DNA from: Aliihoeflea aestuarii
GTDB taxonomy: Bacteria > Pseudomonadota > Alphaproteobacteria > Rhizobiales > Rhizobiaceae
Length of the DNA: 64,000 nucleotides
Direction: 5' to 3'
Assembly (NCBI RefSeq): GCF_024105665.1
Contig: NZ_JAAAMK010000001.1
Coordinates: 62,001 to 126,000, forward strand
Shown here one piece after another: positions 29,265 to 58,108 of the stretch. The notes below the pieces were generated by a model. The model made no database searches. It worked only from the letters and a program-made list of their open reading frames with translations, and had not been told where the DNA came from. Numbering within the stretch: position 1 is the first letter of the stretch; the number at the start of each line of letters is the position of its first letter. Both the position numbers and the translations under genes were made by a program.

Positions 29265-29265
29265 C

Positions 29266-33440: not shown

Positions 33441-33647
33441 TCACCTGATCCGCGTTCGCGCGGCCAACCGGCCGAAAATCGCGACCAGTCCCGAAACGGC
33501 CGCTACCGTCTGGAGAATGGTGTCGGTTAGAACGGCGCTGTCCGCCGGATCGATCGGGACGCCGAGGGCGGCCGCACCAGCACTTGCGACAGTGATGATC
33601 GACGCCCAGATCGTTCGCGACATGTACCAGGGCTTGATTATATCCAT
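33441..33647 (-). CDS. Small holin-like membrane protein at the end of the GTA cluster
   Basis: This 68-residue protein has KPWYMSRTIWASIITVASAG near its start and two hydrophobic segments (about residues 12-30 and 42-60). The WY-S-x-T-I-W motif and the C-terminal GRLAARTRI are seen in small phage-type membrane proteins of rhizobia that are sometimes labelled holins. It begins 11 bases after the TIM-barrel tail gene with AGAGGA upstream, so it is the last gene of the GTA transcript. A role in particle release is a guess from size and location. Confidence 0.65.
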   Translation of the reverse strand: MDIIKPWYMSRTIWASIITVASAGAAALGVPIDPADSAVLTDTILQTVAAVSGLVAIFGRLAARTRIR

Positions 33648-33658
33648 CTGATTTTCCT

Positions 33659-36600
33659 CTAGATGTTGAAGTTGAATGCGCGCGTCGCCGCGACGCCTTC
33701 GCCCACCGCCCGGCTCATCTGGCTGACGCGCAAGACGATTTCGCCGTGGCCGGCGATTTCGGTGGCCGGGACGAGCCAATGCGGTTCGGCACGTTCCGCC
33801 GACGCAAAGACATTCGCGCCCTGCATGAGTTGAACGGCGTAAAGTTCCTCGTCCTCGCCCAGCGGAATTTCACTCGCCAGCCAGCTATCAGCGTCGACGC
33901 GCCCGCGCCGGGTCCAGCCGAACTCGAGATCGCCGTTGGCCATCCATCGGCTTCGCAGATGGACCGGCGAGAGCGGGCGGAGCGCTCGTATTCCGCCTGC
34001 CATGGCGATGGAGGTTGCATACCGATCCGACAGGTCGTAGCCGACCGGCCCGCATCGCCAGTTCAGTTCACGGCCGATCTCACCGGATCGTAGTCCGGCC
34101 GGCACAACGGCACCGTCAAGCATGACGAACCGCGCGCCCGCCCTAGCGCCGGATGCAGACGCGTCTTCGGTGCCCAGTTGGCCACGCAGCAGCTTCGACA
34201 AGACCCAGATGCCGGGCTCGACCTCTTCCGCGCCGGCAAACTGCAAAACCTCCCAGTTCCCGTCGGCAGCTTCGAGCGCCGCCGCATTCGCGCCGTTGAG
34301 CATGTCGAGCATCGCCACCGACTGAAGCGCGCCCGCGCCCATTTCCACGCGCAACGTTCCTGCACGATCGATTAGCCCGCTTCGACCAGTGGGCGCATCC
34401 TCGACCAATCTCCCGATCCGGGCCACACGATCGATCCGCGCACGCGGCGAAAACCCGCTCTCGCCAGTGCCTATGTGAAGCACATGACTGCGCCACGGCC
34501 GCGCGGCCACCGCGATGCGGACATGCGTCGCCGCATCTTCACTGTCGGGCGTGACCGGAAGATCCAGCAGGATCGCGTCGGGTGGGCCGGGCATGAGCGG
34601 CGGCTGGCGTTCCGGCGGCGTCGCCGGTTGCCACCCCTGCGCTGCGCGCAGTCCCGTCCGCCGCGCGAGGATGCGCGCCGTCAACCCCTCCTCCACCGTC
34701 TCGACACGATAAAGGCGATCGCCGCGTCGTTCGGGAAGGCGGATGATATCGCCGGCGCCGACGCTGTCGGATGAAACGGAAAAGCTGACGACCTCGCGGC
34801 TATGCCTGTGACGATCGAGCCAGTTCCGCGCAAGCGCCGCGGCTTGCTCGCCCTCCAGCATGCCTGGAAAGCTCAGTCGGACGCGGTTGTCGCTGCCCGG
34901 TTCATCGATAATCGCACGCTGTTGGGCGCTTTGATAATCGAGAAACGGATCGCGATAGGCGACTTCGACCTCGCTCGCCGTCTGCGTCGCCGCATCCATC
35001 GTGATTTCAACCACGACGCCGCCATCGTCGGCCAGTTCGATCAGGTCGGTCCGGGGTCCGGTGATGTCGGGATTTTTGAACGAGACGATTCCGTCCCGCT
35101 CCACGACCACCAGACCGAAGAGGTCAACGAGCGGCTGCAACGCCGCGCGCGCGGTTCCCGGTTCGTCGACGACGTAACCTGACGCCGTCTGGTGAACGTC
35201 GCTTATATCGGGCGACGGCAGGCCATGCCGCTCCATGATCGCCTCGATCAATGTCGCGATATCGACACCGCTTGCCCGGCCGTTCAACCAATGCCCGAGA
35301 AGCCAGTTCGCCCCATCGGCCCAGACCGAACCAAAGCTTGGAAAGGCCGGAAAAGGTCGCGCATCCCATGCCCAGAGATAGAGCCTGTCCGGATCGACCA
35401 TCCGGCTTCCTTCAAGATCGGCGACGGGGTTGCGACGCGCGTCGAAGAGCGGGTTTCCGGGTTGCCACGCCGCATGATGCGCCTCGAGATATCGCACCGG
35501 TGCGATATCTCTGCGTGATCCGTCGGAGAAGTAGGGTGAGGCATTCTCCGAACTTTTGGGGTCGGGAAAGACGTTCGGCTGGTTCGCCCCTTTGTCGATG
35601 GCCGGACAGCCGATTTCCGTCATCCAGACCGGCTTGGAACGCGGCACCCAAGCGGTCGGCTCCGTCAGTTCAACGCCGCCGATTCGGTTGAAATGAGGGT
35701 TTTCCCACCAGGACCGGATATCCTTGTAGCGGAACACCCAATCCTTGCCGTAGGCGCCATCGCTGATCGGTGTTCGCCGACGATCCAGCCGATCCCCGAT
35801 CGAGGCATAGAAATAGTCGTACCCTTCGCCGCGCGTGACGCCGGCAAGCAGGCCATCCCGGTCGCATGAATTGGTGAAGCCGTCCGGATTGACGCCCGCC
35901 TCGTCGCCGTCGCGCCAATCGGAAAGAGGCATGTAATTGTCTATGCCTACGGCCGATATCGCGGGATGTGCCCAAAGTTCGTCGAGATGGAAAAAGACGT
36001 CGCCATATCCATCGGCCGGCTGATGACCGAAATATTCGCTCCAGTCGGCTCCATAGCTGATGCGCGCTTCCGGCAGCATCGCTGACACTTCGCCGGCAAG
36101 TTCGCACAATGTTTCGACGAACGGAAAGCGATTGGCGCCGTCGCGCAGCGTCGTCAGCCCCCTCAGTTCGGAGCCGAGCAGAAATGCCTCCACGCCGCCC
36201 GCCCGCTGCGCGAGCTTCGCATAATGCAGGACGAGCCGGCGATATCCCCAGTCACCCGGACGCAGGCACCCGATACCCAGCGCGGTGGTGACGATGTCAC
36301 CGGGCGCAACGGCTCCGACGAAATCGGCGACCGCAACGCGTGCGCTCTCAGACTTGTCCGGCGTGCCAGGCAGGTCCGGTGCGGGGTGGCAGGTGATCCG
36401 TCCACGCCAGGGATAGGGCGGCTGGAACGCTTCGCCATAGGGATCGGGGAACGCATTCCCGGCCGGCACATCCATCATGATGAAGGGATAAAGCGTGACC
36501 TTCAGGCCGCGTCGTTTGATCTCTGCGATCGCATCAATCACGGATCTGTCGCTTGGCGTGCCGCCATAGGCTGCCGCGCTTCCGATCTGCGACACGCGAT

Positions 36601-37522
36601 ATGCAGTCCCGCGCGATACACCTGACACGCTCCAATCCTGCGAGAACCCGGCCGGATTGTTCTGCGTCACGCCTGGCCGAACGCGGCAGCTACCCGCACG
36701 CAGATCGTCACCGAACCATGTGACAACCAGCGCGACATGTTTCAGACCGGGAAACACCGCCTGCAATTCGTCGAGCGATGCTTCGATGTCGCTTCCCGCA
36801 TGAAGAATGTGGCGATTGACGGCGTCCGTCTGCCCGGCAACGCCGCCGCGCGTGATCTCCACCGGCGACAGTCCGTATTCCGTCGATCCGGGGATGAGAC
36901 AGACCGCGCGCACATCCTTTTGATAGGCGCCGACCGGACGGATCACCTCGAACTGAAACTGCGGAAGCCGATTGCCGTAGTCACTGACGGGAAACCGGTC
37001 GAACACGACATAAGCGACGCCGCGATAGGCGGGCGTGTTCACCTGCCTAGCGGTGATCAACGGATCGGGCTGCTGGGTTTCGCTTCCCGTATGGATCCTG
37101 ATGTCGAAGCGTTCGCGCTCGATCTCCCGCCCGTCCGCCCAGATGCGCCGGACGCCGGCGATCTCGCCCTCGCAAAGCGCGAAGGCGGCATTCGCGAAAT
37201 AGCTGTACGTGGTCGCCTTCGCGCCGCCGCCTTTTCCGCCCTGGCGTTCCGTCCGGCTTTCCTCCTCGAAACGCGTTGCCCAGATCAGATTGCCGCCGAT
37301 GCGCGCTGTGCCGTAGACCTGCGGCAGCGGAACGCCTTCTTCGGCCTGAAACGGACGCATTGCCGACAGGCGCGGGCCTTCGAACCTTTGCGTGCCGTTG
37401 ATCAGCGCGCGGTCGATCAAATAACCGCCAAGCGCGCCGGCGGCCGAACCGATCGCGGCCCCGACAGTGCCGAGATAACCGCCGAGAAACGTCCCGGCAG
37501 CCTGAAGAACGATAGTCGCCAT
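33659..37522 (-). CDS. GTA tail-tip/baseplate protein with glycoside-hydrolase TIM-barrel domain (gp15-like)
   Basis: This 1287-residue protein is the largest of the cluster. An N-terminal hydrophobic Gly/Ala-rich stretch precedes a tail-assembly region with LPQVYGTARIGGNLIW. A TIM-barrel domain typical of GTA gp15 follows (about residues 380-700, with ISYGADWSEYFGHQPADG and PVWMTEIGCPAIDKG). After it come baseplate-megatron-like and C-terminal host-contact domains. It forms the distal tail and is expected to process or bind the cell surface during delivery. It follows the NlpC/P60 gene by 12 bases. Length is normal for RcGTA relatives. Confidence 0.93.
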   Translation of the reverse strand: MATIVLQAAGTFLGGYLGTVGAAIGSAAGALGGYLIDRALINGTQRFEGPRLSAMRPFQAEEGVPLPQVYGTARIGGNLIWATRFEEESRTERQGGKGGGAKATTYSYFANAAFALCEGEIAGVRRIWADGREIERERFDIRIHTGSETQQPDPLITARQVNTPAYRGVAYVVFDRFPVSDYGNRLPQFQFEVIRPVGAYQKDVRAVCLIPGSTEYGLSPVEITRGGVAGQTDAVNRHILHAGSDIEASLDELQAVFPGLKHVALVVTWFGDDLRAGSCRVRPGVTQNNPAGFSQDWSVSGVSRGTAYRVSQIGSAAAYGGTPSDRSVIDAIAEIKRRGLKVTLYPFIMMDVPAGNAFPDPYGEAFQPPYPWRGRITCHPAPDLPGTPDKSESARVAVADFVGAVAPGDIVTTALGIGCLRPGDWGYRRLVLHYAKLAQRAGGVEAFLLGSELRGLTTLRDGANRFPFVETLCELAGEVSAMLPEARISYGADWSEYFGHQPADGYGDVFFHLDELWAHPAISAVGIDNYMPLSDWRDGDEAGVNPDGFTNSCDRDGLLAGVTRGEGYDYFYASIGDRLDRRRTPISDGAYGKDWVFRYKDIRSWWENPHFNRIGGVELTEPTAWVPRSKPVWMTEIGCPAIDKGANQPNVFPDPKSSENASPYFSDGSRRDIAPVRYLEAHHAAWQPGNPLFDARRNPVADLEGSRMVDPDRLYLWAWDARPFPAFPSFGSVWADGANWLLGHWLNGRASGVDIATLIEAIMERHGLPSPDISDVHQTASGYVVDEPGTARAALQPLVDLFGLVVVERDGIVSFKNPDITGPRTDLIELADDGGVVVEITMDAATQTASEVEVAYRDPFLDYQSAQQRAIIDEPGSDNRVRLSFPGMLEGEQAAALARNWLDRHRHSREVVSFSVSSDSVGAGDIIRLPERRGDRLYRVETVEEGLTARILARRTGLRAAQGWQPATPPERQPPLMPGPPDAILLDLPVTPDSEDAATHVRIAVAARPWRSHVLHIGTGESGFSPRARIDRVARIGRLVEDAPTGRSGLIDRAGTLRVEMGAGALQSVAMLDMLNGANAAALEAADGNWEVLQFAGAEEVEPGIWVLSKLLRGQLGTEDASASGARAGARFVMLDGAVVPAGLRSGEIGRELNWRCGPVGYDLSDRYATSIAMAGGIRALRPLSPVHLRSRWMANGDLEFGWTRRGRVDADSWLASEIPLGEDEELYAVQLMQGANVFASAERAEPHWLVPATEIAGHGEIVLRVSQMSRAVGEGVAATRAFNFNI

Positions 37523-37534
37523 CGAAATCCTCGA

Positions 37535-37957
37535 TCAGGATGGAAAGATGAAAGCTGCGGCGATCCGCGACCGCCAGCTTGGCACCAGCGGCGAAACCGC
37601 CACCGAATGTCCCTCATAGGCATGGATCAGCGCATCGTTTTCGGCCGCGATGCCCAGATGCTTCGCCGGCAGGTGACGGCGCCATCGAAAGACGAGCAGA
37701 TCGCCGGGCTGCGCCGCGCACGGATCGATCTCCGCCATGTGACGCCGCGCCGCCTCGATCAGCGGATCGTCGGCGCTCGCTTCAGCCCAATCGGGCGAAT
37801 AAACGGGCAGCGCCTCCGGCTCGCTCCCGTAAAGCGCGCGCCAGATACCCCTGACGAGGCCGAGACAATCGCACCCAACGCCAAGACGCGAGCCTTGATG
37901 TCGATAGGGTGTGCCGATCCAGCGCATCGCCTCGGCAAGCGCGTCGTCACGCCTCAT
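37535..37957 (-). CDS. GTA NlpC/P60 family peptidase (gp14-like)
   Basis: This 140-residue cysteine peptidase has the catalytic Cys in GCDCLGLVRGIW and the His in AKHLGIAAENDALIHAYEG. It is the tail-associated cell-wall hydrolase that opens peptidoglycan during DNA entry. The start at 37957 overlaps the gp13-like stop by four bases (ATGA); the longer frame upstream is inside that gene. Confidence 0.93.
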   Translation of the reverse strand: MRRDDALAEAMRWIGTPYRHQGSRLGVGCDCLGLVRGIWRALYGSEPEALPVYSPDWAEASADDPLIEAARRHMAEIDPCAAQPGDLLVFRWRRHLPAKHLGIAAENDALIHAYEGHSVAVSPLVPSWRSRIAAAFIFPS

Positions 37958-38790
37958 GGCACGAATGCTCCGCCATCGAACACGCCGTCTTCGTTTACAT
38001 AGCCATAGGCCGCGTCGTTGCCCGGCAGATGCGGAAATCCGCGAAAATTCGCCGTGTTGGAAAACTTGTCCCGGCAGGTCGCGAAGCTCTTGTCGCATCC
38101 GACCCGAATGGAAAATACCGCGCCCGCTTCAAGTTCGCGGCCCTTCGCGAGGCTCACCAAGACCCCCGCCGTCGCGCGGCGGTGATTGGTGACGCGCACT
38201 GACATGCTGCCGGCCTTCAGATGACCTGCCGTGAACCAGCCATCGGCAAAGCCGTCCAGCCCGGCTACTTCATAGGTTGCATCACCCTGCCGCGCGATGA
38301 CGGTCCCTTGCGCCATCATCGAGGCTCCGGACATTTGTACGCCGCAACGCACGTCGCCGAGTTCGGCATCGCAACTGCGTCGCAAATATCGCCCCGCGGG
38401 CCGGTCGAGATTGCGGGTCAGGCTTTCGAGTTCGGCAACCAGCGTTCCGTCGCGGCGTATGATTTTACCGATCGCCGAAACGCGGATCAGCTTCGCCGCA
38501 TCGGGATCGCGCCAGTCCACTTTGAAGGTTTCCACCTTCGCCCCGTCGAACAGCCCGGCATCGATATCCTGTTCCGAAAGCCGGTCAGAGGAAAGCGCAC
38601 CCTCAATCTCGGCGGTATCGACCGCCAGCCCGAGCGATGACTGTGCCTCGCTTTGCGAAAAACCCGATTGCGGCTCGAATGGCGTGTCCTGAAAATCGAG
38701 CCGCCGATCGTGATCGGTGAAGCCCAGGACCTGCCCGTCGGTCTTCGTCACGCGCCAGCAGAAGCAGAAGGTTGTGATCATATCGCTCAT
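37954..38790 (-). CDS. GTA baseplate hub protein, DUF2163 / phage BR0599-like (gp13-like)
   Basis: This 278-residue protein has an N-terminal DUF2163 domain (FCFCWRVTKTDGQVLGFTDH, then LSSDRLSEQDIDAGLFDGAK). A C-terminal BR0599-type domain contains several cysteines (SCDAELGDVRCGVQ, then VGCDKSFATCRDKFSNTANF and GFPHLPGND). In RcGTA-type particles this protein forms the baseplate hub and may bind an Fe-S cluster through the cysteines. It overlaps the genes on both sides by four bases. Confidence 0.93.
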   Translation of the reverse strand: MSDMITTFCFCWRVTKTDGQVLGFTDHDRRLDFQDTPFEPQSGFSQSEAQSSLGLAVDTAEIEGALSSDRLSEQDIDAGLFDGAKVETFKVDWRDPDAAKLIRVSAIGKIIRRDGTLVAELESLTRNLDRPAGRYLRRSCDAELGDVRCGVQMSGASMMAQGTVIARQGDATYEVAGLDGFADGWFTAGHLKAGSMSVRVTNHRRATAGVLVSLAKGRELEAGAVFSIRVGCDKSFATCRDKFSNTANFRGFPHLPGNDAAYGYVNEDGVFDGGAFVP

Positions 38791-39419
38791 GCGAACACCT
38801 CCACGATCGGGATCGTCGGAATCTGCCCGGCCTTGAACGTCGACAGGCTGACCTCAAGCCGGTCGGCATCGAAACGCGCGGCAAGGTCGAACAGGAACCC
38901 GGCCGAAACGACGGCATTCGCGGCAGGCGGCTGCGCCAGCGTGACCGTGCCCGATAATTCATCCACACTGAATCCTATGGGATCGAGCGCGAACCCGTCG
39001 ACTGCCACGCTCACTGATCCGACCACCGGAAGCGTGATATCGCGCAGATAGGCATCCGCATCTCGCCCATAGGCTTTGGTCAGCCGAAACTGCGTCCGCT
39101 CCCCGTCGCCGAGCCCGATCACCTGATCCGTTGCCAAAGGCTCCACGCCCGGCCCGCAAGAGCGGTGGTCGAACGGATCGCGAAACCTGAAGGCGTGAAA
39201 GGCGCCGCGCCTTGCTTCGAAGAAGGCGACGATCTCGGACAGATCGTCGAGCGCACGCACGCCCGTTCCGGCGTCGAATCTGCGGCGTGACCGGCTTTGC
39301 CGCAAATTGCGTTGCTCTCGTCCCGATGTCATGGTCACGATTTCGACGCGGCGCTCGGGGCCGCCCGTTGCACCGAATGAAATCGCAGTCGGAAACTGCA
39401 CGTGGTGAAAACTTTCCAT
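38787..39419 (-). CDS. GTA distal tail protein, DUF2460 (gp12-like)
   Basis: This 210-residue protein matches the DUF2460 / TIGR02217 family: FHHVQFPTAISFGATGGPER at the start, then GVRALDDLSEIVAFFEARRG and FRFRDPFDHRS. It forms the distal tail ring connecting tail tube and baseplate. The start at 39419 follows the tape measure gene by seven bases; the longer reading upstream would enter that gene. Confidence 0.94.
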   Translation of the reverse strand: MESFHHVQFPTAISFGATGGPERRVEIVTMTSGREQRNLRQSRSRRRFDAGTGVRALDDLSEIVAFFEARRGAFHAFRFRDPFDHRSCGPGVEPLATDQVIGLGDGERTQFRLTKAYGRDADAYLRDITLPVVGSVSVAVDGFALDPIGFSVDELSGTVTLAQPPAANAVVSAGFLFDLAARFDADRLEVSLSTFKAGQIPTIPIVEVFA

Positions 39420-39426
39420 CGCCGCC

Positions 39427-39999
39427 TCACATGCTCCGCGCGCCGCGCGAAACGGCGCGAGCGAGCATGCCGGTGATCTGCGCTTCCGACTTGCGGAAGG
39501 ACGCCGCATCGTTTGCGGTCACGTTGAAGACGACGTTCACGCCGCCGCCACCGCTTGCGGCAATGCCCAGCCGTCCGTCGGCGGATCGCTGCAAGGGCAG
39601 GATCGCTTCCGCGCCCGCCTCGCCCATCAGCCCGGTCTGCCGTCCCATCGGGAACAGCGTCGGGCTCGAAACCACCCCGCCCTGTGCGAAAGGGGTGATC
39701 GAGCCCGGCACGCCACCTCTGGCGAACGGCACGATGCCGCGCAACCCGCCGAAAATACCGGACAGTGCGCTCGAAGCCACGCCACCCAGCGGCTTCAGGC
39801 CCTGACTAAGCGCCATTCCGGCAAGGTTGAGGCCGATCCGACGAAGGATGTCGTCGAGCGAACGCCCGCTGACGGTCGCCGACCGCAGCGCGCCGCTCAG
39901 TTGATCGCCGAAACGCGACGACAGTTTTTCGAGATTGGAAAGGGCCGCGGCAAACGGCGCGGTATCGGCGTTGATCGACACGGTGAACTTGTCGTCCAT
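39427..39999 (-). CDS. GTA tail tape measure protein (gp11-like)
   Basis: This 190-residue protein has an amphipathic N-terminal helix region and the C-terminal tape-measure signature (PFARGGVPG, AQGGVVSSPTLFPMG, LMGEAGAEAILPLQRSADG). It sets tail length and is unusually short, as expected for the short tails of GTA particles. The start MDDKFTVSINAD has GAGGAG ten bases upstream. Confidence 0.92.
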   Translation of the reverse strand: MDDKFTVSINADTAPFAAALSNLEKLSSRFGDQLSGALRSATVSGRSLDDILRRIGLNLAGMALSQGLKPLGGVASSALSGIFGGLRGIVPFARGGVPGSITPFAQGGVVSSPTLFPMGRQTGLMGEAGAEAILPLQRSADGRLGIAASGGGGVNVVFNVTANDAASFRKSEAQITGMLARAVSRGARSM

Positions 40000-40013
40000 C
40001 GGTGAAGCACTCC

Positions 40014-40220
40014 TCAAATGTCGGGAAAGCGGGCCATGAGCGCCTGCAAATCATCGCGTTCCGGTGCCGGCGTCCGCTTGCGGACCAGCCCGGCGCTGAA
40101 GGCGAATTCACGCGGCGTCATCGCCCAGAAGACCGCCGGGCTCAGCCGCAGCAGGCCGAGGCCGGTTTCCAGAACATCGTCCCACGGAAACCAGCTCGTC
40201 GGCGCTGCTGCGGCGATCAA
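40014..40220 (-). CDS. Small GTA tail assembly chaperone (gp10.1-like)
   Basis: This 68-residue protein contains GLGLLRLSPAVFWAMTPREF, the core of the TIGR02216-type phage tail assembly chaperone family found between gp10 and gp11 in GTA clusters. It starts with TTG whose sequence TTGA overlaps the stop of the upstream gene, a coupled start that supports this unusual codon. Confidence 0.88.
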   Translation of the reverse strand: MIAAAAPTSWFPWDDVLETGLGLLRLSPAVFWAMTPREFAFSAGLVRKRTPAPERDDLQALMARFPDI

Positions 40221-40549
40221 GGGTTTGCGGCAGTCTGCTCCCCGCCGAATGTGGCTGTCAGGAGATCTGTGACGACCGTGGCGAAACCCGTCACGCCATC
40301 TTCATGCTGCATGGCGAACACCTCGTCGTCCGCGACCGCGTTCCCCGCTCCACGCAACCCCGCGCCGATGATCTTCGCCATATCGGTCGCAGACAGCCGG
40401 CCGGTGGTGAAGCGCTCCACGAGCATGCCCAGATCACACGCCTCGAAGCACGTTTCCAGTTCGGCCAGCGCGCCCAGCGTCAGGCAAAGCCGCCACTCCC
40501 GGCCGTCGAACGTCGCGACGATCTCGCCCCGTCGATGGTTCGCGCTCAT
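40217..40549 (-). CDS. GTA tail chaperone, gp10-like
   Basis: This 110-residue protein starts with NHRRGEIVATFDGREWRLCL and continues with LTLGALAELETCFEACDL and TDMAKIIGAGLRGAG, the layout of the GTA-gp10 family (often called phage tail tube protein or tail assembly chaperone). It overlaps the major tail protein stop by four bases and couples to the next chaperone through TTGA. The pair resembles the G/GT chaperone pair of other tailed phages, though here as separate genes. Confidence 0.9.
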   Translation of the reverse strand: MSANHRRGEIVATFDGREWRLCLTLGALAELETCFEACDLGMLVERFTTGRLSATDMAKIIGAGLRGAGNAVADDEVFAMQHEDGVTGFATVVTDLLTATFGGEQTAANP

Positions 40550-40962
40550 GCCGCCTCCGTAAAGGCAAGCATGCCGGCCGATTCCAGCGCCGCCTCGAAG
40601 GTCACTTCACCGTCGTGGTTACCCGCATATTCGAGCGAGGTGATCTGGAACGATCCTTCGATTACGCCGAAGCTTGGAATGGCGAGTTGCCAGACCGAGA
40701 TCGCACCGTTGAAGAAGCGCTCGCGCAAGAGCGTGTCGGACGCCTGGTCCTTGAATATCCCCGAGCCGCTGACCGAAGCCCGCTGCACGCCCGCGCCGGC
40801 AAGAAGCTCGCGCCAGCGCCCGGCTGAATCGGCATTGGTTACGTCGACCGTTTCGGAATTGAACGCCAGCCGCTTGGTACGTAAACCCGCAATCGTGACG
40901 AACACGCCCTCCCCATTCGGGTCGAGCTTCAGCAAAAGGTCCTTGCCCTTTTGAGCAACCAT
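40546..40962 (-). CDS. GTA major tail tube protein, TP901-1 family (gp9-like)
   Basis: This 138-residue protein begins MVAQKGKDLLLKLD and carries VTIAGLRTKRLAFNSETVDV, SGSGIFKDQASD and GSFQITSLEYAGNHDGEVTF, the standard pattern of the TP901-1 major tail protein family. It polymerises into the tail tube. A 40-base gap separates it from the upstream DUF3168 gene, one of the few untranslated gaps in the operon. Confidence 0.95.
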   Translation of the reverse strand: MVAQKGKDLLLKLDPNGEGVFVTIAGLRTKRLAFNSETVDVTNADSAGRWRELLAGAGVQRASVSGSGIFKDQASDTLLRERFFNGAISVWQLAIPSFGVIEGSFQITSLEYAGNHDGEVTFEAALESAGMLAFTEAA

Positions 40963-41002
40963 GAAGGTCTCCAGGTCTTGAATTTTAAGATGTGATTGAA
41001 GA

Positions 41003-41410
41003 TCAGGCGGTGTCGATCAGCGCGCGAAAGCGTGCGAGGCCGTGATTGACGTCGTGATCGTCCTCATAGCGAACCTCGCCATATTCGGCGCCGAGCCGAA
41101 CAAGGACATGCCCGTCGATCGCCAGTGCCGCATCGTCCAGCGCGATGCGCACGGCATCCAGAAGCGCATGGCACTCGGACTTGCCGCGTTCTTTCGACCA
41201 CGCATGGATGGTGACGAGATGCTCGCCGCCGCTTTCCGTATCGGTCGACCAATCGTAGACGCTCGTCCGTCCGAAGGTCAGGTAAGGAAAGGGCGCATTG
41301 GCCGGTGCCTGATCATACAAGCGCACCTCGCCCATGAGGGTTGCAAGTTCCACATTTTCGACCAGCTTCGTGAAAATCGCCTTTTGCAGTTCAAGTGCGG
41401 CGGCGGTCAT
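41003..41410 (-). CDS. GTA tail terminator protein, DUF3168 (gp8-like)
   Basis: This 135-residue protein belongs to DUF3168 (ELQKAIFTKLVENVELATLM, APANAPFPYLTFGRTSVYDW, GGEHLVTIHAWSKERGKSE). It joins head and tail by capping the tube. The start MTAAALELQKA at 41410 was chosen because GGAGG lies just upstream; its first bases overlap the end of a short upstream ORF by 20 bases. Confidence 0.93.
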   Translation of the reverse strand: MTAAALELQKAIFTKLVENVELATLMGEVRLYDQAPANAPFPYLTFGRTSVYDWSTDTESGGEHLVTIHAWSKERGKSECHALLDAVRIALDDAALAIDGHVLVRLGAEYGEVRYEDDHDVNHGLARFRALIDTA

Positions 41411-41549
41411 CGTCTGCCTCCTCCCGGTCGCGCTCGCGTCGGTACCCGCCGCGACGGTAGCCCGTCGCAACGTCGTCCGCCATCCCGTGAAGGGTGGAAC
41501 GCAGGCTGCGGATCAGGTCGTACATGGTGATATGGATCGCGGTCTTCAT
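41391..41549 (-). CDS. Short 52-residue GTA ORF between closure protein and DUF3168 gene
   Basis: This frame starts with ATG overlapping the stop of the upstream closure gene (TGATG). It encodes MKTAIHITMYDLIRSL followed by a strongly charged tail rich in Arg, Glu and Asp, and ends 20 bases inside the DUF3168 gene. The coupled start is the same device used by most genes of this operon, which supports a real product. It could instead be only a device for re-initiating translation at the next gene, whose GGAGG lies inside it. No family is recognised. Confidence 0.6.
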   Translation of the reverse strand: MKTAIHITMYDLIRSLRSTLHGMADDVATGYRRGGYRRERDREEADDDRRRT

Positions 41550-41881
41550 CACCCCACCTCGCGCGTTTCGAAAACCAAATAACGCCCGGTCTCGTCGGGA
41601 TCGACAAGCGATCTGATCTCAAAAATGCGATCCCGGTTCCGAAACCGCATGCGCCGCTGAATGCCGTCGCGATGGCGGATCGTTATTCGATGCGTGACAT
41701 CCACCTGATGCTGATCGGCCCCGAAGCGCGGCCGCGCCCGCATCGGCTCGACATGGGCGAAGAGCAATGCCACTTCCACCCATGTCTCCACCACACCACC
41801 GGCGCCGTCGCCGGTTGCGATGACGTCCTCAACCGCCAATTCCGTTCGCAACCTGCCCGGATCGATGAATTCGGTTTTCAT
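41549..41881 (-). CDS. GTA head closure protein (gp7-like head-tail adaptor)
   Basis: This 110-residue protein shows the head-tail adaptor pattern: DPGRLRTELAVEDV, the GGVVETWVEVALLFAHVEPM strand pair, VTHRITIRHRDGI and a DRIFEIRSLVDPDETGRYL ending. It closes the portal after DNA filling. The start overlaps the connector gene stop by four bases. Confidence 0.93.
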   Translation of the reverse strand: MKTEFIDPGRLRTELAVEDVIATGDGAGGVVETWVEVALLFAHVEPMRARPRFGADQHQVDVTHRITIRHRDGIQRRMRFRNRDRIFEIRSLVDPDETGRYLVFETREVG

Positions 41882-42456
41882 GCGATCCGCCTTTGCCTGA
41901 ACGGCGCGATCAAGCGGTCATAGCCGGATGGATATGACATCGGCTGTGCCGACGCTCCGCCGACACCGCGAAACTCGTACCAGTGCGCCACGAGCACCAG
42001 CATGGCGCGCTTCAAAAGATCAGGCACGTCCGCACCCGCCTCTCCGTGGCCGGCGGCGTAGTCGATCTCGATACCGTTGAGCGCCGCGCGCGGCGCCAGC
42101 GGCTGGCGAAACACGACGCGGGCGGGGCGCGACGCCATATCAATAGCAAAGTGCGCCGGTTCGACGAGCGAGCCTTCGCCGTCCTCGCCGAACACCGTCA
42201 CGGACAGAACCTCGCGCACCGGCGACGGCGTCAGCCTGACGACGCGGTCGCGCGGCAGCGCATCGAGCACCTTGCGCCATGTCTGGTTCAAAAGTGCCAG
42301 CCCCGTCGCCCTTTCGACCTCCTCACGCGCCGCGCGGATGAGGCCGCTCACCAGTTCGTCCTCGCTGTCATGCTGGAGGCGCAGATGCGCCTTCGTCTCG
42401 GCCAGCGTTACCGGTTCGGCCTCAGGGCCGGTCGTTCGAAATGCGGTCATCGCCAC
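41878..42456 (-). CDS. GTA head-tail connector (gp6-like)
   Basis: This 192-residue protein contains PVTLAETKAHLRLQHDSEDE, LIRAAREEVERATGLALLNQ and YAAGHGEAGADVPDLLKRAM, the pattern of phage gp6-like/phiE125 gp8 connector proteins. Two Met codons near the start (42456 and 42450) are equally usable. It begins after an intrinsic terminator, so its expression needs readthrough or a promoter of its own. Confidence 0.92.
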   Translation of the reverse strand: MAMTAFRTTGPEAEPVTLAETKAHLRLQHDSEDELVSGLIRAAREEVERATGLALLNQTWRKVLDALPRDRVVRLTPSPVREVLSVTVFGEDGEGSLVEPAHFAIDMASRPARVVFRQPLAPRAALNGIEIDYAAGHGEAGADVPDLLKRAMLVLVAHWYEFRGVGGASAQPMSYPSGYDRLIAPFRQRRIA

Positions 42457-42473
42457 CTCGATTGTCGAAAGTG

Positions 42474-42502
42474 AAAAAGCCCCGGCAATCGCTTGCCGGG
42501 GC
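42474..42502 (-). terminator. Intrinsic terminator inside the GTA operon, after the capsid gene
   Basis: On the minus strand, GCCCCGGCAA / TTGCCGGGGC forms a perfect ten-base stem with a four-base loop followed by TTTTT. It lies between the capsid and connector genes. Partial termination here would make terminase-to-capsid transcripts more abundant than tail transcripts. Confidence 0.9.
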
Positions 42503-42526
42503 TCGATTGAGCAAAAGAAAACCGCT

Positions 42527-43762
42527 TCACGCTGCGGCGAACTTCACCAGCTTGATCGCGTCGAAGTCCTGAACGCCGCCGCCGACGCGCTTGGTCACGT
42601 AGAACAGAACATACGGTTTGGCCGAATACGGATCGCGCAATATGCGCACACCCGCCCGGTCGACCACGAGATAACCGCGACCGAAATCACCAAAGGCGAT
42701 CGGCGTTGCTTCACTGCCGATGTCCGGCATATCCTCGGCCTCGACCACCGAGAAGCCCATCAGCAGGGCGCGCGCACCAGCCGTCGCCGGCGGCTGCCAC
42801 AGATAGTTGCCGTCGGCGTCCTTCAGCTTGCGGATCGCGGCCTGCGTGCGCCTGTTCATCACCCAGTTCGCGTTCTGCCGGTAACCGCTCTTCAGCGCGT
42901 AGATCGTGTCGATCAGCACGTCGGAGGCGTCGTCCGCAGGCAGCGTGCCGTCGATACCGGTTGCGATGTGGCCAAGGCTGCCCCACTGCCAGTCCGCTTC
43001 CGCGACGCTGCCATAATCGAGGAAGCCGCGCGGCTTGTTGACGCCGGCACCATTGACGAAGGCAGCGCCTTCCTGCTCGGCAAACGCCGTCTCGACCTCG
43101 GCCGTGATCCAGGCATCGAGATCGACGACCGAATCCTCCAGCAAGGCCGCCGTCGCCGCCGGCATGGCGTAGAGTTCCATCGTCGGGAACTGCAACTCCT
43201 GCAATGCCGCCGTATCCGTCTGCGGACGCGCCGCCGTCTCACCGACCCAGCCGACCGCCGGGCCGTTCACCGCAAACGGCTTTTTAAGAACGGCGCCCGA
43301 CACCTGCCGAACCGTCGCGATCGAGCGGATCGGCGACAATTCACGCAGCCGCGCGCCGATCGCCGTCTCGATCTCGTCGGGCACGAGATAGCCGCCATCC
43401 TGGCCCGACCCGTAGCTCATCGCCTTCTGTTCGAGCGTGCGCAGGCTGCGATCCTCGCCGCCGCGCACATAGGCCTCGAAGGCATGCTTGTGCTCCAGCG
43501 ACGCCGCCGTCGCGCCCGCACCGCCCAGATGCGGCCGTGCCTTCTTCAAGGTCAGTTCGTCCAGCGCACGCTTCTGCTGATCGAGCGCGCTCGACAGGCG
43601 GTCGACCTTGTCGGTCGACAAAACGTCGGCGCTCATGCGCTTTTCGATCTGCGCCAGCCGACCGTCATTGGCTTCGCGAAACGCGCCGAAAATGGTCATG
43701 AATTCGTCGAAGGCATCCGCGATCTCGCCGCCGGCCGCCTTGGTCTCGATGGAATGGTTCAT
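42527..43762 (-). CDS. GTA major capsid protein, HK97 family (gp5-like)
   Basis: This 411-residue protein has an N-terminal coiled-coil delta domain (about residues 1-110, cleaved during maturation). The HK97 fold follows: DGGYLVPDEIETAIGARLRE, AALQELQFPTMELYAMPAAT, NGAGVNKPRGFLDYG, WVMNRRTQAAIRKLKDADGN and the FYVTKRVGGGVQDFDAIKLV ending. It builds the GTA head. The start MNHSIETKAAGG at 43762 overlaps the protease stop by four bases; the upstream extension of the frame lies inside the protease gene. Confidence 0.96.
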   Translation of the reverse strand: MNHSIETKAAGGEIADAFDEFMTIFGAFREANDGRLAQIEKRMSADVLSTDKVDRLSSALDQQKRALDELTLKKARPHLGGAGATAASLEHKHAFEAYVRGGEDRSLRTLEQKAMSYGSGQDGGYLVPDEIETAIGARLRELSPIRSIATVRQVSGAVLKKPFAVNGPAVGWVGETAARPQTDTAALQELQFPTMELYAMPAATAALLEDSVVDLDAWITAEVETAFAEQEGAAFVNGAGVNKPRGFLDYGSVAEADWQWGSLGHIATGIDGTLPADDASDVLIDTIYALKSGYRQNANWVMNRRTQAAIRKLKDADGNYLWQPPATAGARALLMGFSVVEAEDMPDIGSEATPIAFGDFGRGYLVVDRAGVRILRDPYSAKPYVLFYVTKRVGGGVQDFDAIKLVKFAAA

Positions 43763-44439
43763 CGAAGATTTGTCCTTTCGTTGATCTGATGTGCGGCCCT
43801 GCGGATCGCCTCCGCCAGTGCCGTCGTTCCCGCCGGCGCAGCGTCCCGCTCGCGCCGCAAACTGGCAAAGCCGTGGGAGACCACATGCCTTGCCTCCTTC
43901 CGCGTCAGCCGCGCGTCCCGCGTCAGCCAGCGCTCGAATTCCCGTGTGGTCGGCAGTCCCTCGCCATTGAGGGAAATCCGTGCACCTTCCTGCATGGGGA
44001 AAGTCACGACGGAAATCTCCCACAAATCCGCTTCCCTGATGTGCCGGATGCCCGTCTTCGGATCGGTACGCCCACGCGCCACCTTGAAGCCGATCGACAA
44101 GCCGTCGAGCGCCCCGTCACGGATCAGCGCGCGCACCTCGCGCGCCTTATCCGATCCGGGCGACAGGCGACCCCGCACCTTCAGCCCGTATTCGTCTTCC
44201 GCAATCGATGTCCACGCGCCGATCGGCTGTGCCGGGTCGTGCTGGAACAGCATGCGCACGCCGCCCGCGCCCCGGCGCGCAATCGCCTTGGCGAACGCGC
44301 CTCGCTCGACGATGTCACGGCTCATGTCGACCCTGTCGAACAGGCTCGCATAGCCTTCGAACCTTCCGTCGTCGCCGACGCTGTCGATCGAAACGTCGAT
44401 CAGCTTTCGCTCAAGCTCTATCTTGCCGTATTGGCTCAT
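43759..44439 (-). CDS. GTA prohead protease, HK97 family (gp4-like)
   Basis: This 226-residue serine peptidase trims the capsid delta domain. It shows FEGYASLFDRVDMSRDIVER, LFQHDPAQPIGAW (catalytic His), and ALDGLSIGFKVARGRTD (Ser) with IREADLWEISVVTFPMQEGA. The start at 44439 (MSQYGKIELERK) is preferred; the longer frame translates through the palindromic repeat immediately upstream and is not expected to be made. Confidence 0.94.
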   Translation of the reverse strand: MSQYGKIELERKLIDVSIDSVGDDGRFEGYASLFDRVDMSRDIVERGAFAKAIARRGAGGVRMLFQHDPAQPIGAWTSIAEDEYGLKVRGRLSPGSDKAREVRALIRDGALDGLSIGFKVARGRTDPKTGIRHIREADLWEISVVTFPMQEGARISLNGEGLPTTREFERWLTRDARLTRKEARHVVSHGFASLRRERDAAPAGTTALAEAIRRAAHQINERTNLR

Positions 44440-44477
44440 ATGATTGCTTTCGTTTAGGAACTGATCCTGCCCAATGG

Positions 44478-44605
44478 CGAGGCATGGACCCCTGTGACGA
44501 GCACAGGGGTGACGGGATGACTGGTTGTGCCAATCGCCGACGCTGACGGGCTCCATCACCCTTCCCGCCCTCACCCCTGTGCTCGTCACAGGGGTCCATG
44601 CCTCA
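44478..44605. repeat. Dispersed palindromic repeat, copy B, inside the GTA operon
   Basis: The left unit at 44479-44512 and right unit at 44571-44604 are reverse complements over 34 bases, separated by 58 bases. The core reads GAGGCATGGACCCCTG, so copy A's ATTCC is replaced by ACCCC, and both arms changed together to keep pairing. It lies in the 191-base gap between the small membrane protein gene and the protease gene, and a transcript would fold into a long hairpin. Confidence 0.9.
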
Positions 44606-44630
44606 ACCTTCCAAACCCGCGCGGTCCAAA

Positions 44631-44951
44631 CTACCTCTCACCCCGCGCCCCGCCGCGCTCGAACATCCGCATGACGAGGCCGAGCGCCCACCAGGCGCTG
44701 AGGCTGGAGGCGGCCGATCCCATCAGCATGATCTCGAACACACCGAGCCCGGTCCCGACATCGAGTTCCGATGCGATCTTGAGCCCCGCCGCACCACCGA
44801 AGATCAGTCCGCTGACGACACCGACCGTAAAGCGCAACGCCGCCTCGCGGCGACCGCGCGGCAGAACATAGGCGACCGATATCGCCGAGCCGGCGATCGC
44901 GCCGGCAAGCTTTGCGGCCCACAACCAGGCCGTCTCATACCCTTGAGTCAT
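44631..44951 (-). CDS. Small GTA-cluster membrane protein between portal and protease
   Basis: This 106-residue protein has three hydrophobic segments (about residues 10-28, 40-58 and 70-92) separated by Arg-rich turns (PRGRREAALRF). It occupies the place of the small ORF between gp3 and gp4 in alphaproteobacterial GTA clusters, but its function there is unknown. The start at 44951 is ten bases after the portal stop. The repeat element follows its stop by about 25 bases. Confidence 0.8.
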   Translation of the reverse strand: MTQGYETAWLWAAKLAGAIAGSAISVAYVLPRGRREAALRFTVGVVSGLIFGGAAGLKIASELDVGTGLGVFEIMLMGSAASSLSAWWALGLVMRMFERGGARGER

Positions 44952-44961
44952 ATCGGCCTCC

Positions 44962-46146
44962 TCAGCCGAGCGCGCGCGGCCCATAGCCGACCGCCTCGCG
45001 CTTTTCGTCATCGGTCAGGAAATCTGCGCCGCTGATGCGTGCCCACAGCGCCTCGCGTTCGACCGACAATCCCTCGATCCGGTCGGCATCGTAGCCAAGC
45101 TTGAGCCGCCGTCCGAAGCGCGGTCCAAGCCAACCGCCCAGTTCCTGCGCGATGCGCTCCACCAGCGGCAGCACCGTCAGGCGATAGAACGCCCGGTTCG
45201 CCTCCTGATAGTTCGCATAGGTATTGTCGCCGGGAATGCCGAGCATCATCGGCGGAATGCCGAAGGCGAGCGCAATGTCGCGGCTAGCGGCGTTCTTGGC
45301 TTCGATGAAATCCATGTCCTTCGGCGTCAGGCCCATCGCCTTCCACTCGAGACCGCCCTCCAGAAGAAGCGGCCGCCCGGCCCGCACCGCGCCCGAATAC
45401 CCGTCCTCAAGCTCGCTCTTCAGCCGCTCATACTGCTCGTCGGTCAGGTTGCCGCCATCCTTCGGCGCATAGACGAGCGCACCGGAAGGCCGGGCGGAAT
45501 TATCCAGCAGCGCCTTGTTCCAGCGCCCGGTAGCGTTGTGCACGTCGAGTGCCATCAAGGCCGCCAACAATGGCGGGAAGCCGTAGTGATCGTCGAGCGG
45601 ATGGAAGAGCGCGAAATGATGCGATCCGCCATTCTCGCCCAGACCCAAAGCCACGCGCCGCAATCCGGCACTCTGCCGCTCTTCGAGCGCCACCGGCCAA
45701 CCTGCCGCATCTGCGGCAACCGTCACCCGGTCGGGTCGCAGAAGGTGCAACTCCCGCGCGCTGCTCGCAGTCTCCACGAGCTCGGCATAGGCGTTGCCGG
45801 CCATCAGCAGATGTCCGTAGAGACTTTCGAGAAAACTCGGTCCCGACTGGCGCGTATTTGGGCGTGCGACGAGATCGAGAAGCGGGTGATCGCTCAGTTC
45901 CTCGCCGTCCTCGTAAAGCAGGAATGGGATCGTCGCGGCCGCCTGCGCGATCATCCTGACGGATCGATGGACGACCGGGTTGCGCATGAAACCTTCGCGC
46001 GCCAGCGCCGCATAGTCGCCGCGCGTCCACACCGCATCGCCATGCAGATGAAGCGCCACGAACCCCGGCGACATCCCCGCCGAACGCGTTTCCAGGCGCG
46101 CGCCGCCATCCCCGGAGCGTGCCGCCCAAGGCCAGTTCCATCCCAT
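44962..46146 (-). CDS. GTA portal protein, HK97 family (gp3-like)
   Basis: This 394-residue phage portal protein shows NPVVHRSVRMIAQAAATIPF, LLDLVARPNTRQSGPSFLES, HLLMAGNAYAELV, and IALAFGIPPMMLGIPGDNTY with YANYQEANRAFYRLTVLPLV. It forms the dodecameric ring through which DNA is packaged. The start MGWNWPWAAR at 46146 is 11 bases after the terminase stop. Confidence 0.95.
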   Translation of the reverse strand: MGWNWPWAARSGDGGARLETRSAGMSPGFVALHLHGDAVWTRGDYAALAREGFMRNPVVHRSVRMIAQAAATIPFLLYEDGEELSDHPLLDLVARPNTRQSGPSFLESLYGHLLMAGNAYAELVETASSARELHLLRPDRVTVAADAAGWPVALEERQSAGLRRVALGLGENGGSHHFALFHPLDDHYGFPPLLAALMALDVHNATGRWNKALLDNSARPSGALVYAPKDGGNLTDEQYERLKSELEDGYSGAVRAGRPLLLEGGLEWKAMGLTPKDMDFIEAKNAASRDIALAFGIPPMMLGIPGDNTYANYQEANRAFYRLTVLPLVERIAQELGGWLGPRFGRRLKLGYDADRIEGLSVEREALWARISGADFLTDDEKREAVGYGPRALG

Positions 46147-46157
46147 ATCGATGTCCT

Positions 46158-47441
46158 TCAGGTAAGTTTGCGGATGCGCGGCTCGTGGCCACGGCCCAAA
46201 AAGAGTTCGTTCAGCGCCCAGACGAGTGCGTCGAGACGATCCGGCGAACGCCCGTTCGACAACCCGTCCGGCCCGAAATCGCACATCTCGTCTTCGAGTT
46301 CGGGAAAGCGGCGCCCATGCACCACCTTTCCCTGATGGTAGAGCGCGGCGACCGGTTCGGCACGCAGCCATTTCCCACGCGTCGCCCGCACCGGCTTCAC
46401 CGGCAGGGTCGCATCGATCGCGGAAAGCACTGCCCCGACCATGTCACCGCCCTGATTGACCTCGGCGACCACACAATCGGCCTCGTGGCGATGAAAAGCC
46501 TCGACGATGCGCGCGGCCCACCCTTGCGGCTTCAGCCCCTGCACCGTTGCATCCTCCAGCACCACCGCACGACCGTCTTCGGCCAGTCCGGCGACGACGA
46601 TTCCGCACGCATCGGCCGCCTTTCCCGAACTTGCCGGCGGATCGACCGCGACGACGATCCGCGTCAGGCCCATCCGCTCGCCCGGCACCGCCGTTTCGAT
46701 CTGTGCGCGCGACCACAGCGCGCCGTCGCGATCCTCGATCAGTTCGCCATCGAGTTCCTGGCGTTCGAGCCGCGAGCCCGCATAGCGCTTGCGGATTGCA
46801 TCGATAAACCCGGACGCGAGGTTCGCACGATTGTCCGTCGTCTTCAGCCGCGTCACGGTCACGTCCGGGTCGGCGATCAGCGCCTTCACCAGAGGCAGCG
46901 GGCGCGGCGTCGTGGTGATGATCTGCGTCGGCCGCTCGCCGAGCCGTAATCCGAATTGCAGCATATCGAAACACGCCTGCGGATGCCGCCATTTGGCAAG
47001 TTCATCGCACCAAGCGGCATGGAATTGCGGCCCGCGCAGGCTTTCGGGATCTTCGGAGGAAAACGCATAGGCGACCGCGCCGGAGTCCCAGACGAGCCGT
47101 CGGCGTCCCGCTTCATAGCGTGGCCGGTTTCGCCGCGCCTGAGCGACAAGTCCCGATGGCCCCTCGACCATCACCTCGCGCACGTCGCCGAGGGTCTCAC
47201 CGATCAATGCTATCCGCATGTCCCTGGTTTTTCGCCCGAAGGGTGGCAACCCCCTCACAAGCGCGTTCACCCATTCGGTTCCGAGCCGCGTCTTTCCCGC
47301 GCCGCGCCCGCCTAGCACCAGCCAGGTCGGCTTGAGCGAGCGAATCGGATACTGTGCCGGATGCGCTGTCGAAAACCATTCGCCCCGCGTCAGCGCCTCG
47401 CTATAGGCATCCAGATTCTCCTGCGCCCATTCCGGCTGCAT
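46158..47441 (-). CDS. GTA large terminase subunit (gp2-like)
   Basis: This packaging motor and nuclease of about 427 residues has Walker A in VLGGRGAGKTRLGTEWVNAL, Walker B-like AAWCDELAKW, coupling motif TTTPRPLPLVKALI, and nuclease-domain acidic residues in IVVAVDPPASSG, CVVAEVNQGGD and SPDRLDALVWALNELFLG. In GTA particles it packages random host DNA by headful cutting. The start could be 47441 (41-base overlap with the upstream gene) or 47504 (104-base overlap). Neither has a strong ribosome binding site, so translation is probably coupled. Confidence 0.93.
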   Translation of the reverse strand: MQPEWAQENLDAYSEALTRGEWFSTAHPAQYPIRSLKPTWLVLGGRGAGKTRLGTEWVNALVRGLPPFGRKTRDMRIALIGETLGDVREVMVEGPSGLVAQARRNRPRYEAGRRRLVWDSGAVAYAFSSEDPESLRGPQFHAAWCDELAKWRHPQACFDMLQFGLRLGERPTQIITTTPRPLPLVKALIADPDVTVTRLKTTDNRANLASGFIDAIRKRYAGSRLERQELDGELIEDRDGALWSRAQIETAVPGERMGLTRIVVAVDPPASSGKAADACGIVVAGLAEDGRAVVLEDATVQGLKPQGWAARIVEAFHRHEADCVVAEVNQGGDMVGAVLSAIDATLPVKPVRATRGKWLRAEPVAALYHQGKVVHGRRFPELEDEMCDFGPDGLSNGRSPDRLDALVWALNELFLGRGHEPRIRKLT

Positions 47442-47868
47442 GATACCGGGCGATTTCGTGGATTTTGTCGTCGATCCGCTTGAGAGCGGCTGCAAGTTCG
47501 GCATCGTCTTTTATCTGTTTGTCTTTTGCGTCCTCGTCGGAGCGCATGGTTTCGCCGATTTTTTCGAGCGCCTTCACCATCGCCATGATGGTGTCGACGC
47601 GCCCCTTGTCGAACGTCAGTCCCTCCCCTTCCTCGCTGCCGAGCGTCAGCCGCTCGATCTCGGAGATCAGCCGGTCATATTGGATCTCGATGCGTCGGCG
47701 TCGTTCCGTCAGGCTGCTTGAAGAGGCGACGCGCCAGGTTTCGGCCTGCGCCCGCGCCTCCAAGAAACGCACCGACCGGCCCGCGATCGTCGCAAGCCTT
47801 TCCAGGGTCGGCTCGCCGCCCTCATGGATATGCCTGATGGCTGCGAGAACGCGTTCCGCGCTTCCCAT
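47401..47868 (-). CDS. GTA small terminase-like protein (gp1-like)
   Basis: This 155-residue protein has an N-terminal helical DNA-binding-like region (RVLAAIRHIHEGGEPTLERL, then ATIAGRSVRFLEARA). Long helices with coiled-coil character follow (LTERRRRIEIQYDRLISEIE). Position as first gene, size and helical make-up match gp1, the small terminase of RcGTA-type clusters. An excellent ribosome binding site (GAGGG) fixes the ATG at 47868. A candidate promoter lies about 85 bases upstream. Confidence 0.82.
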   Translation of the reverse strand: MGSAERVLAAIRHIHEGGEPTLERLATIAGRSVRFLEARAQAETWRVASSSSLTERRRRIEIQYDRLISEIERLTLGSEEGEGLTFDKGRVDTIMAMVKALEKIGETMRSDEDAKDKQIKDDAELAAALKRIDDKIHEIARYHAAGMGAGESGCL

Positions 47869-57556: not shown

Positions 57557-57563
57557 GCGTGCC

Positions 57564-57965: not shown

Positions 57966-58108
57966 ATTCACCTCCGATATAGGAATAAATGCTTTTATCG
58001 TGGATCAGCGCGCATGAGAACAAATATCGAACATAAAAATTTATCCCGCCATCCAATCTACTGGTTTCGTTCAGGATTTTTTCTTGCTGCAAATTCCGGC
58101 CGGTAAAC

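Follow-up and report, generated by a model that had tools for sequence, protein, structure and literature searches.

The 64,000-nucleotide stretch of Aliihoeflea aestuarii DNA analyzed here (the window; G000:C1:62001-126000 of a 4.1 Mb genome) carries a gene transfer agent (GTA) cluster of the type known from Rhodobacter capsulatus (RcGTA). At its head lies a small terminase (TerS) gene, g1, with a predicted N-terminal helix-turn-helix (HTH). Judged from its sequence, the cluster is complete, under purifying selection, syntenic in relatives, preceded by a conserved promoter, and linked to homologues of the activator genes gafY and gafZ. The system is of a known kind; what is new is the TerS with its predicted HTH and the promoter motif. 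We consider it probable that this is a vertically kept GTA whose promoter is driven by GafY and GafZ, and whose TerS holds DNA through an unspecific HTH.

Known GTA small terminases have been described as lacking a DNA-binding domain, and this lack has been proposed as the cause of random packaging (Sherlock et al. 2019, PMC6854486). Table 1 of PMC6854486 contains ten GTA TerS proteins of 92–125 aa, with Bartonella as the sole representative of the Hyphomicrobiales, and a 2024 review states that the putative TerS proteins of known GTAs all lack a DNA-binding domain. In the accessible text of the open-licence PMC literature, we found no RcGTA-type TerS described as having an HTH. The TerS in the window departs from the proposed HTH-less type, and we did not file it there because of the HTH predicted at residues 2–42. 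The initial annotation, which had recognized the cluster from the sequence alone, made no mention of the g1 domain, of the promoter, of gafYZ nearby, or of the holin-like gene that closes the cluster.

The predicted helix-turn-helix of the small terminase

By its position and its helical C-terminal part, g1 is the TerS gene of the RcGTA-type cluster. Its start was set at ATG 47868 because a ribosome site (GAGGG) is present and because this start fits three congeners. A GTG at 47955 was rejected as the start; it sits in the promoter region. The predicted HTH (residues 2–42) is followed by coiled-coil-like helices (53–79 and 88–112) and a C-terminal helix (118–150). AlphaFold2, given 32 sequences, placed helices at residues 2–15, 22–29, 33–42, 53–79, 88–112, and 118–150, with a mean predicted local distance difference test (pLDDT) score of 80.6 and scores of 89–96 over the first 40 residues. 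The N-terminal 48 residues modelled in isolation, with 49 sequences, reached a pLDDT of 92.

Family matches of this domain are mostly to HTH families. When each of the 49 sequences was scanned singly, HTH_23 was matched in 8 (best 2.3e-6) and HTH_29 in 2 (best 4.8e-5), with further matches to Sigma70_r4_2 (7 sequences), Xre-like-HTH, HTH_15, and HTH_AsnC (6 each), and UPF0175 (5). A profile of the 49 domains, compared with PDB sequences, gave CAP REPEAT as its top chain (9.7e-16), a score made up of five stretches that are each weak alone. The next matches, many of them HTH regulators or sigma factors, were VirS HTH (0.001), an uncharacterised protein (0.0026), SigJ (0.01), SigE (0.036), MuB (0.07), and ArsR (0.07). 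In a Foldseek search with the domain, 46 of the 50 matches listed carry titles of DNA-binding regulators, sigma factors, Ada, or ParB, and 32 of these 46 are IdeR/DtxR entries.

Several results count against the prediction. The predicted template modelling (pTM) score of the whole g1 model is 0.45, and neither the whole model nor the domain drew a Foldseek match at E ≤ 0.001. Searched by itself, the g1 protein of the window has no match in Pfam or PHROG, HTH families included, and a profile of the whole protein draws weak matches (best 0.007). At higher E-values, the 49-domain profile also draws chains that are not HTH proteins (L34, viral FLICE, and IgE).

Conservation within the domain is uneven. 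Among the 49 sequences, positions 8, 11, 14, 25, 28, 36, and 45 are hydrophobic in 84–100%, and positions 33–35 and 37 are variable. Basic residues occur at positions 38, 39, and 42 in 57–76% of the sequences; of these three recognition-helix positions, the g1 of the window retains a basic residue at R39 alone. Four congeners (G001–G004, loci L126–L129) served for comparisons at shorter range. In the HTH part, the proportion of synonymous differences (pS, 0.44–0.51) exceeds that of nonsynonymous differences (pN, 0.21–0.23) in three comparisons that share the branch of the window and cover few sites (Fisher p 0.0009, 0.017, and 0.0011). In the recognition helix, pN (0.41–0.42) is not below pS (0.36–0.38), a comparison that is based on ~8 synonymous sites. 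Across the window, G001, G002, and G004, 6 of 10 positions vary in the recognition helix versus 9 of 60 in the coiled coil. By these substitution patterns, the HTH fold is constrained, and the recognition helix is not detectably so. This pattern fits a domain that holds DNA without one fixed target; changing targets would be compatible with it too.

The predicted HTH is widespread. Among aligned relatives, it is present in 48 of 54 and absent from 6. A hidden Markov model (HMM) search over the open reading frames (ORFs) ahead of terL in 126 RcGTA-type loci (67 from a capsid scan, 30 from the order, and 29 from the class) detected it in 74 (49, 19, and 6, respectively); 45 loci had no HTH match and 7 had no ORF. 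The 19 positives from the order include one copy each of the window, L004, and L005; L004 was counted despite a frame shift behind the domain. L108 was also counted as positive, having matched at 6.9e-12 in an earlier HMM round and dropped out in the last iteration. Read by eye, 16 non-positive loci have a TerS-like ORF without the HTH. In an unrooted FastTree phylogeny of the large terminase (TerL; 124 rows, 46 open forks, with L096–L098 excluded as copies of the window, L005, and L004), the HTH occurs on many Hyphomicrobiales branches and on a few at class level, with 32 rows unassigned for the HTH and excluded from the change count. One 20-row clade of Rhizobium type holds no positives (8 without, 12 unassigned). 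Judged from this distribution, presence of the HTH looks old and its absence derived; with the tree unrooted and 32 rows unassigned, we make no claim for the number or direction of losses.

Some individual loci stand apart. Four more distant class members (L143, L146, L151, and L153) have a different TerS type with an HTH-like start of its own, as read by eye. In five loci of Rhizobiaceae type (L063, L066, L067, L071, and L072), the GTA promoter lies ~0.9–1 kb ahead of terL, and no TerS-like ORF was recognized among ORFs ending within ~250 nt of the terL start. The GTA cluster of L050, in a record titled Bacillus subtilis strain SK6B4 (JAHREI010000009.1), groups in the TerL tree with L046–L048 (Pseudochrobactrum and relatives); this record is probably mislabelled or contaminated.

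The promoter and its putative regulators

The sequence upstream of g1 reads TTGACACCGTGACGGT, with TATAGT 15 nt past the −35 element and the palindrome ACCGTGACGGT located between −35 and −10. The exact 15-mer TTGACACCGTNACGG occurs once in the genome, at the GTA site, and a longer pattern is found within two mismatches at that site only. When TTGACACCGTNACGGTG was matched against 69 upstream regions, 18, 17, 18, and 7 of them contained it with 0, 1, 2, or 3 mismatches at best, respectively, and the other 9 with more. Of 1380 mononucleotide shuffles, none matched with ≤2 mismatches and 0.6% did so with 3. In slightly longer regions, the promoter site was found with ≤3 mismatches in 62 of 69 (59 after thinning). 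Conservation extends well past the search anchor: 40 columns reach ≥0.9 bits, all of them between −13 and +49, and 27 of these fall outside the 17-base anchor.

When 150 genomes of the order were searched without an anchor, the association with GTA genes emerged again: all six exact matches to the longer pattern precede GTA genes, five before g2 and one before g3 of a split cluster; the reversed pattern, used as a control, gave no exact match. On the other side, 144 of the 150 genomes have no exact match (the genome of the window, with one mismatch, is among them), and the motif has therefore diverged or is absent there. In the split cluster of L176 (G039:C13:346000-359000), TerL lies ~6.5 kb upstream of the promoter, and the promoter precedes g3.

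The position of the inverted repeat is that seen in GafZ-dependent promoters of the Caulobacter crescentus GTA (CcGTA, controlled by GafY, GafZ, and IHF), in which the palindrome between −35 and −10 is functional and bound by GafZ (PMC11150451). GafZ binding is predicted for the site in the window. The two palindromes differ in sequence (GCGCCCG-CTGGCGC in CcGTA versus ACCGTGACGGT here), and while the GafY site of CcGTA lies at −123 to −113, here another conserved block, TAGGAA, abuts the −35. This block is at most a candidate GafY site, given that difference in position. For the conserved block that follows the promoter, a role as a packaging site recognized by the HTH was considered and set aside; over the 160 nt around the promoter, four of six lineages with an HTH-less TerS retain the block.

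The genes for the presumptive activators lie in the same window, 9 kb from the cluster, with mucR upstream. The GafA-type activator of RcGTA is present here as two genes, gafY and gafZ, as it is in CcGTA, and both were found in each of the two congeners with enough flank to show them. RcGTA-like clusters and split gafA genes are known from many Hyphomicrobiales (PMC9662315, PMC9638019), and the mucR-gafY-gafZ-sufE neighborhood is as in PMC9638019. The TerS domain, the promoter motif, and the terminal holin-like gene were not found described in the accessible text of these two papers.

The holin-like gene, another difference from RcGTA, may serve particle release. By eye, its product shows two hydrophobic stretches; in relatives, a single 19-residue window exceeds 1.6. 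In 41 of 47 loci, the gene begins 12–80 nt past the end of g15, whereas L046–L048, L050, L055, and L059 yielded no such gene. Its ratio of nonsynonymous to synonymous substitution rates (dN/dS) is 0.09–0.12. RcGTA lysis proceeds by a holin-endolysin mechanism, and no such canonical homologues were found for CcGTA (PMC13236601). Our search for a GH108 endolysin (other endolysin families were not searched) found no intact copy in the genome; it returned a truncated match at C19 and a weak PG_binding_3 match.

Gene content, selection, and synteny

The cluster occupies 47868 to 33441 of the minus strand (~14 kb) and comprises 18 open genes in RcGTA order, from g1 through g15 to the holin-like gene (Table 1). 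The initial annotation had described all expected genes on one strand, free of frameshifts and stops, and both statements hold: families g2–g15 are recognized in order, and none of the 18 frames is broken within the window. Its span of 33441–47868 is right for the cluster as a whole; the low end is that of the holin-like gene, and not of g15, which ends at 33659. The overlapping, coupled starts it reported apply to 7 of the 17 junctions (six by 4 nt, and g1/g2 by 104 nt), and the remaining ten are gaps of 7–191 nt, with starts as chosen here. The Pfam matches in Table 1 lie above the cut-off, and three products (those of g1, g11, and the ORF at 33441) have no Pfam match.

Table 1. Coordinates of the GTA cluster, its promoter, and linked genes in the window
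Feature	Position	Strand	Basis
g1, small terminase (TerS), 155 aa	47401..47868	-	ATG 47868 after GAGGG; AF2 (AlphaFold2) models; HTH profile/family matches; relatives' alignment
g2, large terminase (TerL)	46158..47504	-	Pfam Terminase_6N 5e-30, Terminase_6C 1e-24
g3, portal	44962..46146	-	Phage_portal 1.7e-82
g3.5, DUF6107 protein	44631..44951	-	PF19602 8e-33
g4, prohead protease	43759..44439	-	Peptidase_S78 1.6e-32
g5, HK97-fold major capsid	42527..43762	-	Phage_capsid 4e-91
g6, head-tail connector	41878..42450	-	Phage_connect_1 2.5e-12
g7, head completion	41549..41881	-	Phage_HCP 1e-23
g8, tail completion gp17	41003..41410	-	PF11367 6e-33
g9, tail tube	40546..40962	-	Phage_tail_2 5e-44
g10, GTA-gp10	40217..40549	-	Phage_TAC_11 8e-29
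g10.1, tail assembly chaperone	40014..40220	-	Phage_TAC_6 8.5e-18
g11, tape measure, 190 aa	39427..39999	-	tape-measure PHROGs 2.8e-14
g12, DUF2460 tail protein	38787..39419	-	PF09343 1.6e-77
g13, baseplate hub	37954..38790	-	PF09931 2e-51, PF09356 1.4e-20
g14, NlpC/P60 peptidase	37535..37957	-	PF00877 1e-8
g15, TIM-barrel tail protein, 1287 aa	33659..37522	-	GTA_TIM 3.6e-132, also Rcc01698_C; RcGTA structure 6tba 4.6e-268
holin-like protein, 68 aa, last cluster gene	33441..33647	-	phrog_34682 holin 3e-4 (weak)
conserved promoter block: TAGGAA..TTC, TTGACA with ACCGTGACGGT palindrome, TATAGT, downstream block	47931..47993	-	upstream-region comparison
-35 TTGACA and spacer palindrome ACCGTGACGGT, GafZ-site-like	47965..47980	-	compared with PMC11150451
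GafZ homologue, equivalent to the C-terminal half of GafA; start given probably too early	56762..57637	-	DUF6456 1.3e-48; one match in genome
GafY homologue (DnaA-like DNA-binding)	57564..57971	-	Bac_DnaA_C 1.4e-15
sufE, beside gafZ	56346-56714	+	

The cluster shares its gene set and order with RcGTA (Rhodogtaviriformidae), including a helical TerS beside TerL, and g15 aligns with 6tba over residues 1–1280. It differs from RcGTA in its TerS of 155 aa with a predicted HTH, and from CcGTA in having a recognizable TerS, none being known there (PMC11841831).

Intact frames had been taken as a sign of selection, and a dN/dS analysis across relatives had been suggested as a check. Against the four congeners, dN/dS of the cluster genes is 0.08–0.49, with a median of 0.17 (71 gene-genome comparisons, excluding the frame-shifted g1 of G003 and using the first 945 codons only of g15 from G001), which supports selection on these genes. 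Values for nearby genes are 0.03–0.04 for the host gene feuP, and 0.23–0.30 for gafZ and 0.16–0.21 for gafY (two genomes each); mucR of G004 has a shifted frame and was not used. In 200 simulated runs, neutral change at 10% of sites broke a mean of 13 of the 18 genes, with a minimum of 9.

Those g2–g15 genes that were found keep their order in every one of the 63 full-length relatives. All 14 were detected in 59 of these; three lack a detected g8, and one a detected g2. The divergent PBP1a gene lies upstream of the cluster in 48 of the 63, and downstream neighbors include feuP in 35 and feuN in 31; feuQ was found in none of the 63, whose loci end ~10 kb from the capsid gene. In the window itself, the downstream genes at 30955–33374 encode a small protein that is probably secreted, together with a response regulator and a histidine kinase; the three look like FeuN/FeuP/FeuQ. 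Low dN/dS and conserved neighbors support long-term maintenance by selection together with vertical inheritance, as far as sequence comparison can indicate.

Broken frames in relatives weigh on the other side. Two of the four congeners have one shifted frame each: in the metagenome-assembled genome G003 (L004), the g1 frame shifts past the HTH and ahead of the coiled coil; in the draft genome G001 (L005), the shift in g15 falls after residue 930. The other three congeners have intact copies of the gene in each case. Sequencing error and real decay cannot be told apart here. More broadly, 14 of 939 gene-locus frames are <90% of the length of the window gene (nine in g4, two in g15, and one each in g3, g11, and g12). 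Otherwise complete clusters with a single short or shifted gene are those of L039, L078, and L005/G001 (g15), L009 (g3), L061 (g11), and L059 (g12), for which sequencing error and early decay are likewise not told apart.

GC skew is negative across the cluster (about −0.03 to −0.14 over 28000–48000, strongest at 43–47 kb), mostly −0.05 to +0.03 in 1–28 kb, and −0.04 to −0.09 in 55–63 kb; GC-skew patterns at GTA clusters have been reported (PMC9836097). Elsewhere in the genome, two further phage elements with integrase-like ORFs were seen by eye, L084 (G000:C1:20000-39999) and L085 (G000:C12:308000-327999), the former of which appears degraded from its ORFs.

Proposed DNA packaging and domestication

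The initial annotation had also noted an absence of phage integration and replication genes. This agrees with the flanks at 26.8–58.9 kb, in which no integrase or phage replication gene was found among the family-matched ORFs, all of which have host or GTA-regulator functions; several ORFs there had no match, and small ORFs were partly scanned. It had further read the intact frames as selection to keep producing particles, which is the best reading of the sequence data rather than a result. That the cluster encodes a defective prophage, or a killing particle like PBSX, kept for some other use and transferring no genes, is very improbable in our judgment. A killing particle of that kind would likewise keep intact structural genes, and nothing in the sequence proves transfer. 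Against this stand the synteny and selection described above, the homologues of GTA activators, tested flanks in which no integrase was seen, and matches to two families named after GTAs, GTA-gp10 and GTA_TIM (the latter is present in Rhodobacter phages as well); on the flanks, synteny, and selection, a prophage was rejected. Rhodobacter phages such as RcKemmy and RcHotPocket have a g15 homologue at about 40–41%, and the Mesorhizobium prophage vB_MseS-P1, reported to have 12 RcGTA homologues, differs by description (PMC11409702) in being an inducible, integrated phage. The top records of a phage collection for g15 and capsid are MW091529 and MW462191; the next for g15, among the best 15 of 135 matches, are Rhodobacter phages at ≤41%. 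MW091529.1 and MW462191.1 share 65–69% (capsid), 48–49% (g15), and 43–46% (holin-like gene) with Hyphomicrobiales GTAs; from these similarities, both, deposited as bacteriophages, are probably GTA clusters and not phages.

The role of the TerS domain is where the remaining readings part. The three N-terminal helices might serve oligomer packing or portal contact and not DNA, and the nonsignificant Foldseek E-values, the six aligned relatives whose g1 lacks the domain, and the single retained basic residue in the window are in keeping with this. We regard it as quite unlikely, given the HTH families and regulators that the domain matches, the basic residues that recur at positions 38, 39, and 42 in its relatives, and the fact that characterised phage TerS proteins mostly start with an HTH DNA-binding domain (PMC6854486). 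A second possibility, unlikely but less so, is that the HTH is a true sequence reader, such that TerS would start packaging at preferred host sites, the particle would be a site-biased transducer, and the recognition helix would change along with the sites. The breadth of the HTH among the 126 loci and its purifying selection suit such a reader, and clear packaging peaks reported for the GTAs of D. shibae and C. crescentus (PMC11841831) make bias possible. The same review judges the D. shibae peaks unlikely to come from TerS specificity, and the congeners show no detectable constraint on the recognition helix. The block retained in HTH-less lineages is also easier to explain as part of a promoter than as a packaging site, within the 160 nt around the promoter that were examined; the terS interior was not searched.

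In the reading that we prefer, a vertically kept GTA with an unspecific HTH, GafY and GafZ would switch on the promoter, with GafZ at the palindrome between −35 and −10, and the structural genes would then be read as one unit. TerS would recruit TerL to host DNA via its HTH, still holding DNA but no longer reading one fixed sequence. Heads would be filled by headful packaging, and the holin-like protein may help release. Random packaging here would come from a relaxed recognition helix and not from loss of the whole domain as in Rhodobacter.

A wider proposal, which we offer tentatively, is that most Hyphomicrobiales GTAs never lost DNA binding by TerS. Either the recognition helix was unlocked on a kept HTH scaffold, which would be a second, independent route to domestication, or packaging starts at many short, degenerate sites, with uneven transfer of the genome; loss of the domain (in Rhodobacter and in lineages of Rhizobium type) would then be later and repeated. 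In part of the Hyphomicrobiales, the promoter motif can serve as a sequence tag by which GTA clusters are located, and it offers work on GafZ a direct target. To explain how GTAs acquired the ability to package any DNA, loss of the TerS DNA-binding domain has been proposed in print. The many RcGTA-type clusters with a predicted HTH, together with sister lineages without it, constitute a natural experiment on that proposal.

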